This document shows positions 20,867 through 28,220 of a DNA stretch of 64,000 nucleotides, one piece after another. Origin of the DNA: Catillopecten margaritatus gill symbiont (GTDB taxonomy: Bacteria; Pseudomonadota; Gammaproteobacteria; PS1; Pseudothioglobaceae); assembly GCA_037956075.1 (NCBI GenBank), contig CP138327.1, positions 558,001 through 622,000 of the forward strand, read 5' to 3'. The notes beneath the pieces were generated by a model, which saw only the letters and a program-made list of their open reading frames with translations, searched no databases and was not told where the DNA came from. Both the position numbers and the translations under genes were made by a program. Every line of letters begins with the position of its first letter. Within the stretch, counting starts at the first letter, position 1.

Positions 20867-21340
20867 TTAACGATTAGCGCCTCTTGCTTGTGCATCTGCA
20901 TAACCTTTGGCATAAGCATCAGCCTGTGCCTTAGCAAAACCATCAGCTTGACCTTTAGCATAAGCGTCAGCTTGACCTTTAGCAGTTGCATCAGCAACAC
21001 CATAAGCCTTACCATCAGCAACGCCAGAGCCAGTAGCATCGTTCTTATTTTTAGTGTCGAAGTTCATACCAAAGTCTGTATCGTTCAACCAGTTATTACC
21101 GCCCTTGAAAGGACCCCAGTTTTGAGCGCCATTGAATGGACCCGCATTAGAGCCACCGTTGAAAGGACCCCAGTTGTTGCCGCCATTAAATGGACCCCAG
21201 TTTGAGCCGCCATTTGCAGGGCCAAAGTTTGAACCAGAATCAAAAGGACCCCAATTGTTACTACCATTAGAACCATTGTTAAAGAAAGCTGAAACCGATG
21301 TAGCTGCCACAATAGCAGTAATTGCGATAATTTTTTTCAT
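20867..21340 (-). CDS. Secreted NWGPF-repeat protein, candidate sulfur-globule protein
   Basis: A 157-residue protein from the ATG at 21340, which has GGAG 8-11 bases upstream. A signal peptide (MKKIIAITAIVAATSVSA) is followed by about seven 9-residue repeats of the form N-W-G-P-F-x-G-G-x (residues about 23-80), a short linker (DTDFGMNFDTKNKND), then five or six repeats of A-x-A-K-G-Q-A-D type (about 105-152). Glycine/asparagine/tryptophan-rich secreted repeats are a mark of sulfur-globule envelope proteins in sulfur oxidisers, and the DFxMxFD linker also fits. A structural surface protein is the main alternative. Own promoter and terminator flank it. Confidence 0.6.
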   Translation of the reverse strand: MKKIIAITAIVAATSVSAFFNNGSNGSNNWGPFDSGSNFGPANGGSNWGPFNGGNNWGPFNGGSNAGPFNGAQNWGPFKGGNNWLNDTDFGMNFDTKNKNDATGSGVADGKAYGVADATAKGQADAYAKGQADGFAKAQADAYAKGYADAQARGANR

Positions 21341-21368
21341 ATTGTATTCTCCGAATTTTAAAAATTTA

Positions 21369-21422
21369 CGCATCATTATTGATGCGCTTTAGTTTGTATC
21401 AAGTATTTTCTTGATAAACAAA
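21369..21422 (-). promoter_or_regulatory. Two hairpins in the leader of the NWGPF-repeat gene
   Basis: On the minus strand the transcript would start near 21417 and open with TATCAAG-6-CTTGATA (21397-21416), then CGCATCA-TTAT-TGATGCG (21369-21386), both perfect 7-bp stems, before the ribosome site. A stem-loop at the extreme 5' end is a known way to stabilise abundant mRNAs such as ompA; that role here is inferred. Confidence 0.6.
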
Positions 21423-23227: not shown

Positions 23228-24975
23228 ATGTAGGTAGTTATAGAAACACAACAGCCAACCCGAGTGAAGATGATCGCACCATAAAAATCTCTTATAAAGA
23301 CGCTGCTGACAACGAAAGTGCCGTGGGAACGGTAACTTTAGATATGGATTTAACACCACCTACGGCAACTTTAACCACAACAGAAAGCACAAAAAATAAC
23401 AGCAATGTTGTTGTTCAAAGTAATGAAACTGGTTACGCTTACTTAGTTAAAAATGGTGAAACTATTCCTACAACCAAAGTAGGTTTTGATACTTTAGCAA
23501 CTGGTAACACGGCTAATACAGTGGCAATTGGCGCAACAAACACAGCAACCAACTTACCAACAACAAACTTAGAAGCGGGCACTTACAAACTTTACACTAT
23601 TGACGGTGCAGGCAATATTTCAGCAGTCAGCGCTAGTGGTGTAACAATTATCCCTACCCCTGCACACAGTCACACAATAAACACAGTGGGAACATTGGCT
23701 ACACCTACCACTACGGGTGTTTCTTCGCTTGATTCTGGGATTCACTGGAATGTACCCACTGATAGAAAGATTACTTATAGTTTTAATACAGCCGCCATAG
23801 GCATGCCCAGTGATTACAATAATGCGGGTTATGGTATTGCTGATGGTTGGGCGGAACTTAGTGATGCACAAAAAACAGCAGTTAGATCTGTGATGACAAA
23901 AGCAGGGGAACTCGTCAATATCAATTTTACGGAAGTAGCAGATACTACCGCTCAAAGTGATGGCGATATTCAATTTAACATTACCAATACAAGCAGCGGT
24001 ACCAATGGTTATGCTTATTCCCCTGGTACTTCTAGCAATTATTCTGGAGATATTTTTCTTTCGAGTACATTTAATACCAACCCTGCTGGTCATGGTTTGA
24101 ATGCTGGAGAATCGGGCTGGTCTACAATTGCCCATGAATTGGGACATGCTTTAGGTTTGAAGCACCCTTTTTCAGGTTCAAACCCATTACTTCCTGGCGA
24201 AAATAATAAAAATCACACGATTATGTCTTATAATCCTGTAAATGCTTGGTTAGTCAAGTTCACTGCAACTAGTGATAGCACTGTTTCTTTTAGTGGTAAA
24301 TACCTCTCGCCCGAACTTTTCTCTCTTTATGATGTTGCCGCCCTCCAGGCGCATTATGGCGTCAACGATAACACCAATACAGGCGACACAACCTATAGTT
24401 ACGAATATACAGATTATGAACGCAATACAATCTGGGACGCTGGCGGCGTTGATTTAATTGACTTGTCTATGTGCATAGGTAATAGCAATGTTGATTTAAA
24501 CCCAGGTTCTTTAAGTAGTGTTGATCAATATACAATGGCGCAAGTTATTCAAGTGCACCAAAACTCTGTAGGCGGGTCCAATTCAGCAGATTTTATAAGA
24601 GATAAGATTAATGCGCATGGAGCAGGTGTGATATATACAGGCAAAGACAATCTAGGTATCGCTACAGGAACAATTATTGAGAATGTCCTAACAGGTGTAG
24701 GAAATGACATAATCATTGATAATTTAGTTGATAACATCATTAAAACTGGTGCAGGTGATGATAATATTCATATCGGTCAAGGGGGTTACGATACCATTGA
24801 TGGTGGTTTAGGCACTGATAAGCTTTATATTGATGCAAAGAAAGAAGATATTACTTATACAGCTGCATCTGCAAATGGTGGCGAATATGGGCTATTGACA
24901 ACATCCAGTTACACAGCACAATTTAAAGGTATTGAAACTTTGTATTTTCAAAACGGCGAAACTATTATGGTTTAA
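23228..24975 (+). pseudogene. 5'-truncated serralysin-like RTX metalloprotease
   Basis: The frame is open from the IS3 end at 23228 (NVGSYRNTTANPSEDD) and the first possible start is a GTG at 23323. Visible are the end of an Ig-like module (DAADNESAVGTVTLDMD), another module with YKLYTIDGAGNIS, then an M10 metallopeptidase domain with the zinc site HELGHALGLKH (His at about residue 271 from the GTG) and Met-turn HTIMSYNP, and C-terminal RTX-like repeats (GAGDDNIHIGQGGYDTIDGG). Serralysins leave the cell by type I secretion. The missing 5' part must have coded more Ig-like modules, so the gene is probably inactive or expressed from within. Confidence 0.85.
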
Positions 24976-24999
24976 CTAAAGGGCACCCAAAAAGCGCAT

Positions 25000-25455
25000 T
25001 CACGATACCCATCAGGGACATGATAAACCCATCTATTGAGAATAAAATAAGTTTAAGAATGTGGTAGTCGCGAGTGAATTCGAATCACCGACTTTCCATC
25101 ATAATATCCGTCAGGAACAGAGAGGAACTTACATATTAAGAATAAATAAGTTTTGGAATATGGTAGTCGCGAGTGAATTCGAATCACCGACTTTCCATCA
25201 TAACATCCGTCAGGGATATGATAAACCCATCTTTTAAGAATAAATAAGTTTAAGAATGTGGTAGTCGCGAGTGAATTCGAATCACCGACTTTCCATCATA
25301 ACATCCGTCAGGGATATGATAAACCCATCTTTTAAGAATAAATAAGTTTAAGAATGTGGTAGTCGCGAGTGAATTCGAATCACCGACTTTCCATCATAAT
25401 ATCCGTCAGGAACAGAGAGGAACTTACATATTAAGAATAAATAAGTTTTGGAATA
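25000..25455 (-). repeat. Tandem array of tRNA-Val 3' ends (four units plus a partial)
   Basis: Four units start at 25062, 25161, 25259 and 25357, with periods of 99, 98, 98 and 99 bases; the intact tRNA-Val is the fifth member at 25456. Each carries an exact copy of the last 33 bases of the tRNA (variable loop edge, T-arm, 3' acceptor strand and CCA), followed on the plus strand by a spacer of about 65 bases of two types: one with CAGGAACAGAGAGGAACTT, one with CAGGGATATGATAAACCC, in order A-B-B-A. A degenerate B spacer lies at 25000-25061. Nothing else codes between the protease stop (24975) and the tRNA. Confidence 0.93.
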
Positions 25456-25532
25456 TGGTAGTCGCGAGTGAATTCGAATCACCGACTTCCTCCATGTCAA
25501 GGAGACACTCTAACCAACTGAGCTACGCGACT
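25456..25532 (-). tRNA. tRNA-Val(GAC)
   Basis: 77 bases on the minus strand: acceptor AGTCGCG pairing with CGCGACT, D-arm GCTC..GAGT, anticodon stem CTCC/GGAG around loop TTGACAT (anticodon GAC), T-arm with TTCGAAT, and an encoded CCA end. A TATAAT lies about 11 bases upstream. Its 3' third is repeated four more times just downstream. Confidence 0.95.
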
Positions 25533-25542
25533 AAAAAAAGAA

Positions 25543-25548
25543 ATTATA
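25543..25548 (-). promoter_or_regulatory. -10 box of the tRNA-Val gene
   Basis: A TATAAT on the minus strand directly behind the pyrF stop codon and 11 bases before the mature tRNA 5' end. The -35 box would lie inside the pyrF coding end; no strong match is seen there. Confidence 0.45.
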
Positions 25549-26672: not shown

Positions 26673-28220
26673 TTAACGCTTTTTATTTGCCTTATTTAGA
26701 TTATTTTGCGCTGCGTTGGTGCCTTGTTCAGCTGCTTTTTTCCACCAAAGGAACGCTTGCTCTTTGTCTTGTGCAACGCCTTGTCCACTATGGTACATAA
26801 TCCCTACATTGTTTTGAGCGCTGGCATCGCCTTGCTTAGCCGCTTCCTTGTACCAATAAAAAGCTTGATTCATATCTTTCGGCACGCCCACACCCTTGCG
26901 ATACGCATTGCCTAACTCAAATTGAACATTAACATCTCCTTGCTTGGCGATACTTTTCAACTTGAAAATAGAATTTTTTAAATGTTTTTCACTTGCTTTT
27001 TGTATAATTTTTAGTGCAATTTTTGATTTAACTTGAGGCTTTGGCTTAATTATTTCAACTATTGTTACTGCATTAGCTTTTGGGTCAACTTCTGACTTAA
27101 CTTTAATTGTTTTGCTGGTAGTTATTGCGGCAACTTTCAGACTGGGTGGATTTTTTTTCTGTACAGGTTTAAGGTTATTTTTTACCTCAGAAATAGAATC
27201 CTGTGATTGTTTTTTATTTGCTTTTTGTGTAACTTTTGATGCAATTTTTGACTCAATCTGAGGTGTTGACTTAATTATTTCAACTGTCTTAGCATTTGGT
27301 TTAACTTGCGACTTAATTTTAATTACTTTTTTGGCGGCCACTATAGCAACTTGCGGACTGAGTGGATTTTTTTTCTGTGTAGCTCTCAGGTTATTTTTTG
27401 TTTTAATAGTGCCTTGCTTAGCGATACTTTTCAACTTAAAAGTAGATGATTGATCTTCGTTTGCTTTTTGTGTAACTTTTGATGCAATTTTTGACTTAAC
27501 CTGAGGCTTTAGTTCAATTCTTTCGACTGTCTTTACTATTTTAGCTTTTGGACTCACTTGTAACTTAATTTTAGTTGCTTTGTTGACCGCTGTTATAGCA
27601 ACTTGTGGTTTGAGTGGATTTTTTTTCTGTGCAGTTCTAAGGTTATTTTTTGCTTTAATAGTCCCTTGTTTAGCGGCTTTTTTCCACCAAAAAATCGCTT
27701 GTTCTTTATCTTTTTCAATGCCTTTACCCTTGTTGTACATGGCACCTAAATTAGTTTGTGCCTTAGTATCCCCTTGTTTAGCAGATTTCATATACCAATA
27801 AAGAGCTTGCTGATAATCTTGTTTAGCAATCCTACCTTTTTCATATGCAATCCCTAAATTGAATTGTGCTTTGCGATTGCCTTTTTTAGCGGCAATTGTC
27901 CACCAATACATTGCTTGTTTGTTGTCTTGCTCAATACCTCTGCCTTTTTCATACATGGTGCCTAAATTAGTCTGTGCGTTAATATTTCCTTTCTCAGCTG
28001 ACTTTGCAAGCCAATACACTGCTTGCTTATTGTCTTTTGCAACGCCGTCACCTTTGATATACCTCATTCCCAAGTCAAATTGGGCGTCAGTATCTTGATC
28101 TTTAGCCAAATCAAACTGCGCCTTAGCCTCCTCTAAAATATTTGAAATACTACAAGACGATAAACCAAGACTTATAAATATCAGCAATAAGGAGAATGTA
28201 AATTGTTTAATAATATTCAT
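26673..28220 (-). CDS. Sel1-repeat lipoprotein with lysine-rich internal repeats
   Basis: A 515-residue protein with a lipoprotein signal (lipobox LSSC, cysteine at about 23). Four Sel1 repeats follow (about 42-190, e.g. AQFDLGMRYIKGDGVAKDN), then a basic middle region (about 195-420) built from three long diverged copies of a KIASKVTQKAN...NNLxxxQKKNPLxPQVA unit, then two more Sel1 repeats (VQFELGNAYRKGVGVPKDM). It starts 5 bases after the giant adhesin stop, so the two are probably one transcription unit and may work together at the surface. The middle repeats match nothing I recognise. Confidence 0.85.
   Translation of the reverse strand: MNIIKQFTFSLLLIFISLGLSSCSISNILEEAKAQFDLAKDQDTDAQFDLGMRYIKGDGVAKDNKQAVYWLAKSAEKGNINAQTNLGTMYEKGRGIEQDNKQAMYWWTIAAKKGNRKAQFNLGIAYEKGRIAKQDYQQALYWYMKSAKQGDTKAQTNLGAMYNKGKGIEKDKEQAIFWWKKAAKQGTIKAKNNLRTAQKKNPLKPQVAITAVNKATKIKLQVSPKAKIVKTVERIELKPQVKSKIASKVTQKANEDQSSTFKLKSIAKQGTIKTKNNLRATQKKNPLSPQVAIVAAKKVIKIKSQVKPNAKTVEIIKSTPQIESKIASKVTQKANKKQSQDSISEVKNNLKPVQKKNPPSLKVAAITTSKTIKVKSEVDPKANAVTIVEIIKPKPQVKSKIALKIIQKASEKHLKNSIFKLKSIAKQGDVNVQFELGNAYRKGVGVPKDMNQAFYWYKEAAKQGDASAQNNVGIMYHSGQGVAQDKEQAFLWWKKAAEQGTNAAQNNLNKANKKR

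Follow-up and report, generated by a model that had tools for sequence, protein, structure and literature searches.

Tandem copies of a tRNA-Val(GAC) 3′ end behind the intact gene in a sulfur-oxidising symbiont lineage: a candidate integration scar with an rtT-like layout

Downstream of its intact tRNA-Val(GAC) gene, the sulfur-oxidising bacterium studied here carries four further exact copies of the 33-nt 3′ end of that tRNA (AAGTCGGTGATTCGAATTCACTCGCGACTACCA), and a homologous array is present in one sister species and absent elsewhere among 83 genomes of the family. The reading we prefer, to which we give about an even chance, is that the array is an amplified and homogenised integration scar that probably shares a transcript with the tRNA and may have a function; the element origin of the array, its transcription, its processing and its function are what we infer here. 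The analysis started from a stretch of 64,000 nt (the window) of this genome (hereafter G000), which its named relatives place in the Pseudothioglobaceae (SUP05 clade), and whose genus also includes Bathymodiolus thiotrophic symbionts and Ca. Thiodubiliella.

The tRNA-Val(GAC) gene lies directly behind pyrF (OMP decarboxylase), and the array runs downstream of this minus-strand gene toward lower coordinates (Table 1). Each 33-nt repeat contains the variable loop, the T-arm, the 3′ acceptor strand, the discriminator and CCA. Counted from the tRNA gene outward, the copies are spaced at 99, 98, 98 and 99 nt, and the spacers follow the order A (66 nt), B (65), B (65), A (66) and a diverged B-like sequence; Tandem Repeats Finder reports a period of 98 with 4.8 copies (score 724). 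The preliminary description had claimed four exact 33-base copies at 98–99-base spacing, with A-B-B-A spacers and a degenerate fifth, and everything countable in it was confirmed; the strand, minus, was left unstated there. An exact pattern search of genome_contigs returned no other tandem arrays.

Table 1. Features of the tRNA-Val(GAC) locus, in window coordinates and in the direction of transcription of the tRNA.
Feature	Position	Strand	Basis
TATAAT hexamer, likely −10 element of the tRNA's own promoter	25543..25548	-	sequence
Intact tRNA-Val(GAC), CCA encoded	25456..25532	-	ARAGORN; Rfam RF00005, 62.1 bits
Spacer type A, first unit	25390..25455	-	sequence
tRNA-Val 3′ end copy 1, 33/33 identical	25357..25389	-	sequence match
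Spacer type B, first copy	25292..25356	-	sequence
tRNA-Val 3′ end copy 2, 33/33 identical	25259..25291	-	sequence match
Spacer type B, second copy	25194..25258	-	sequence
tRNA-Val 3′ end copy 3, 33/33 identical	25161..25193	-	sequence match
Spacer type A, second copy	25095..25160	-	sequence
tRNA-Val 3′ end copy 4, 33/33 identical	25062..25094	-	sequence match
Terminal diverged B-like spacer, two hairpins still possible	24997..25061	-	covariance model 82 bits; folds/pairs
Terminal hairpin, weak terminator candidate, poor U-tract	24974..25016	-	fold -13.4 kcal/mol, z -2.7

The homologous array belongs to a genome of 1.47 Mb (hereafter G006) that is sister to G000 in a pyrF tree (support 94/96). 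Behind its tRNA lie four 3′ ends, three of them exact and the fourth differing at one position, together with four 65-nt spacers (type S), all identical. A 25-nt core pattern that tolerated up to 3 mismatches gave five hits in G000 (the tRNA and its four copies), five in G006 (the tRNA, the three exact copies and the one-mismatch copy) and a single hit in each of 16 other genomes; the reversed control pattern was found once in all 18 genomes. These counts exclude a chance origin of the repeats. Trained only on the G000 spacers, a covariance model recovered the G006 spacers (E 3e-9) and found nothing convincing in the other 81 of the 83 family genomes. Unit number, whose comparison among related strains had been proposed at the outset, is four in G006 as well, with no array in other family genomes.

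Within each genome, the copies follow the local tRNA sequence. The variable-loop region of the tRNA reads GGAAGTCGG in G000, whereas AGGGGTCGG is found both in G006 and in most of the genus; in the arrays, the sequence is GAAAGTCGG in each of the four G000 copies and AGGGGTCGG in those of G006. Two variable-loop bases have therefore changed in the G000 tRNA and in its four copies alike, so that the tRNA and the array evolve together, a functional tRNA gene in concert with truncated copies of itself. Because of this homogenisation, the exactness of the tRNA parts alone is not evidence for selection. The preliminary description had attributed their near-identity to selection or recent gene conversion; "probably both" describes the data better, with homogenisation acting on the tRNA parts and the signal of selection lying in the lower divergence of the spacers compared with synonymous sites. 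Between G000 and G006 the tRNA-Val(GAC) gene shows 9 differences, spread over the D-stem, the anticodon stem and the variable loop; the gene is otherwise nearly invariant in the genus, and among these differences paired positions have changed together.

At fourfold-degenerate sites, G000 and G006 differ at 52% of positions (541 sites in alignable coding regions near the locus), and their spacers show a p-distance of 0.21–0.30 (Fisher p 1e-6 to 5e-4 against the fourfold sites), a difference that suggests constraint on the spacers. As a control, 65-nt flanks behind other tRNAs without a following tRNA gave identities of about 0.49–0.78, and the spacer identity of 0.70–0.79 falls at the high end of these ordinary post-tRNA flanks, not outside that range. 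Spacer divergence could also be low if the array had moved from one species to the other, but the differences between the two tRNAs speak against a recent move. Type A is 21.5% divergent from type B within G000, roughly the distance that separates it from the G006 spacer, so the two unit types may predate the split of G000 and G006.

Co-transcription of the array with tRNA-Val(GAC) is very likely, since the terminator of G006, an AT-rich hairpin after the last copy (-11.5 kcal/mol, z -3.8), lies past the array. In G000 a terminator-like site (24997-24983) lies at the end of the array, where the hairpin is weaker than that of G006, and most genus members have a terminator right behind the CCA of tRNA-Val(GAC). 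The TATAAT hexamer stands 10 nt upstream of the tRNA, just past the pyrF stop; a promoter scan did not report it, and no −35 partner was flagged. With the array placed between the tRNA and a terminator, transcription from the tRNA promoter would be expected to run through it, and each unit would end in a T-arm hairpin and ACCA that tRNA-maturation enzymes should process, yielding RNAs of about 98 nt. The copies are predicted to fold into the T-arm hairpin with an AGUCG/CGACU extension, leaving ACCA unpaired.

Beyond the array, G000 has a block of ~3.5 kb, carrying IS3-type transposase ORFs and a metallopeptidase gene, before the genes that follow the array in G006. Two nearby features were recorded in passing. 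The window encodes at 20867-21376 a small secreted-looking protein with repeated GSNWGPF-like motifs and no Pfam match, and a protein with a similar start directly follows the array in G006; at 27217-27675, a long imperfect 252-bp tandem repeat lies within a Sel1-type lipoprotein gene.

A common fold of the spacers was also apparent. Every spacer type can form two hairpins, the first of about 9 bp (hairpin 1) and the second of about 6 bp with a CUGAC or CUGAU loop (hairpin 2), and in all four types the sense (tRNA) strand folds better than the antisense strand. A plain MAFFT alignment of the spacers gave no covariation; pair counting on that basis misplaces the G006 stem, and a structural alignment made by hand was added. 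None of the eight stem changes that separate B from S disrupts pairing (p 0.04), spacer A has lost three outer pairs, and an overall shuffle test of pairing on the structural alignment gave p 0.06. The G006 spacers score 52.4 bits with the structural model against 33.6 bits with a sequence-only model, although chance matches also score higher with the structural model. The pairing evidence for the two-hairpin fold shared by the G000 and G006 spacers is weak and no more than suggestive. Since the spacers appear constrained and fold alike in both species, a processed-RNA role, either rtT-like or sponge-like as for 3′ETS-leuZ, seems somewhat more likely than pure junk.

Taken further, the same evidence bears on a true rtT-like functional system, in which the array would exist through selection on its RNAs, however it arose. 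This overlaps the functional part of our preferred explanation, and we consider it possible while rating it below even. The layout is the same as in E. coli tyrT/rtT, spacer divergence is low, and the changes within the common two-hairpin fold are mostly pair-preserving; on the other hand, the structure statistics are borderline, only two species carry the array, and the function of rtT itself is not well established, its repeats being poorly explained.

As to origin, the direct repeat runs from inside the tRNA to its 3′ end (positions 45–77 in G000, 43–77 in G006), as in the scars of integrative elements that target tRNAs. tRNA gene fragments of this origin are known and widespread (PMC9897764). 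In three relatives, a tRNA-Val(GAC) 3′ copy (from about position 29–38 to 77) lies 1.4–2.5 kb downstream of the gene; these copies are degenerate or exact, and one (L093) is exact over 49 nt and extends into the flank. All three are free-living SUP05-type genomes, and two of their blocks encode a related Sel1-repeat protein. In another relative (L051/G026), a gene with Arm-DNA-bind_3 and Phage_integrase domains (P4-type integrase) starts about 200 nt downstream of tRNA-Val(GAC); a second tRNA-Val 3′ end was not found on its short contig. We therefore prefer an att-site origin, given the shape of the repeat, the att-like 3′ copies and the integrase at the same tRNA, and a unit order in G006 that suggests insertion of the spacer ahead of the terminator. 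The preliminary description had weighed integration at an att site against a parallel with rtT and had pointed to integrase genes beside this tRNA in relatives as a place to look; such a gene is there, relatives without the array do carry insertions at the same tRNA, and the origin fits the att alternative better, with the rtT parallel holding for layout only.

Near the array in G000, no integrase or element remnant was found among the ORFs profiled; the surrounding genes are pyrF, IS3-type transposase ORFs, the metallopeptidase and Sel1-type genes. Outside the array, the spacer had no convincing match in 20 genomes and no exact-pattern match in IMG/VR, and together with the search of the 83 family genomes this led us to reject it as a dispersed repeat or mobile element. 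Downstream ORFs at one further tRNA locus (L074), considered as a tRNA-specific integrase, look by eye like IS transposases and were likewise set aside.

On the preferred explanation, an integrative element would have recombined at tRNA-Val(GAC), leaving behind, besides an intact tRNA and some element DNA, another tRNA 3′ end. Once most of the element was lost, recombination between the 33–35-nt direct repeats could have multiplied the unit of 65-nt spacer plus 3′ end, and ongoing unequal crossing-over or gene conversion would keep the copies identical to the tRNA.

A neutral satellite would dispense with both element and function: slippage or illegitimate recombination would have produced a tandem duplication by chance, later expanded and homogenised. 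Concerted evolution alone accounts for the exact 33-nt copies, the identical spacers of G006 are what a recent re-expansion predicts, and the decay of a tRNA-Asp copy in another genome (G001) indicates that comparable copies can be free of selection. We nevertheless find this account somewhat unlikely, because the interspecies spacer divergence is less than about half the fourfold-site level and both species retain the array. Moreover, the order in G006 is tRNA-(S-3′ end)n-terminator and most genus terminators follow the CCA, so that the spacer looks inserted and not like an ancestral flank.

It is improbable that the units are decayed tandem copies of the whole tRNA, with 5′ halves degenerated to spacers and 3′ halves kept by conversion. 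The tRNA-Asp copy described below keeps its anticodon stem, and spacer hairpin 2 (UCC-CUGAC-GGA) resembles the anticodon arm (UCC-UUGACAU-GGA); alignments of spacers with the tRNA 5′ half were, however, mostly no better than shuffles (p 0.02–0.7), with a single alignment at p about 0.02, which weakens the idea. Repeated independent integrations of a mini-element, one unit each, are highly improbable: every unit does regenerate a tRNA 3′ end, as integration would, but the units have a length of only 98 bp, contain no genes and do not differ from one another in G006, and a single event followed by unequal recombination is simpler.

Partial copies were also seen at other tRNAs. In both G000 (G000:C1:162300-163300) and G006, tRNA-Asp is followed by a terminator, a partial tRNA-Asp copy (3′ 40 nt exact, anticodon loop altered) and a second terminator; the decayed copy of G001 is of this kind. 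In its exactness in G000 and G006, the tRNA-Asp copy parallels the tRNA-Val copies. G006 further has a 22-nt 3′ copy of tRNA-Phe 97 nt downstream, past a first terminator and with another terminator after it. These single 3′ copies, of tRNA-Asp in both species and of tRNA-Phe in G006, point to an integration-like process at other tRNAs. Some 85 nt upstream of the respective intact gene are a 5′ fragment of tRNA-Ile (1–21) in G000 and one of tRNA-Met (3–22) in G006; these 5′ copies are unexplained by the usual integration at 3′ ends. No partial copies were found at the 65 tRNAs of G004 and G011. The symbiont lineage with the array has unusually frequent partial tRNA copies.

Among known systems, attL/attR scars share with the array a direct repeat that starts in the tRNA body and stops at the 3′ terminus; the array differs in its four tandem copies, short spacers, homogenisation and lack of a remaining element or integrase. 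3′ETS-leuZ, unlike the array, derives from a polycistronic tRNA transcript, and it is not known to occur in repeats or to contain copies of a tRNA 3′ end. It does demonstrate that an RNA released by processing downstream of a tRNA can be a regulatory sponge (PMC5222698).

The closest parallel is E. coli tyrT/rtT (RF00391), in which tandem units of spacer and exact tRNA 3′ end, including CCA, likewise lie downstream of the tRNA. The E. coli K-12 region, which served as a control, has three units of 178 bp downstream of tyrV, every one closing with 19 nt from the 3′ end of tRNA-Tyr and matching the Rfam RtT model at 133–138 bits; the array gave no match to RF00391 up to E 5 and lies outside a tRNA-Tyr (tyrT) operon. 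The only sub-threshold Rfam hits, to HPnc0260 on the opposite strand and below the gathering score, were judged to be chance. The likeness to rtT drawn in the preliminary description therefore stands for the tandem-unit layout and not for sequence: the array is an analogue of rtT in layout and not a member of the RtT family, with tRNA-Val in place of tRNA-Tyr, 98-nt units in place of 178-nt units and 33 nt of tRNA in place of 19 nt, in unrelated sequence and in a distant lineage. That a chemosynthetic symbiont lineage independently evolved an rtT-like system from an integration scar, as a tRNA-coupled multicopy small RNA, is a fairly unlikely possibility; it would imply a small RNA that has two conserved hairpins, ends in a tRNA-like CCA tail and is made in fixed proportion to tRNA-Val. 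The E. coli rtT repeats are the single familiar example of this layout. The array adds another, unrelated to the first and present in two divergent species, and comparing these offers a means of asking whether such arrays serve as sources of functional RNA or are no more than integration scars or recombination satellites.
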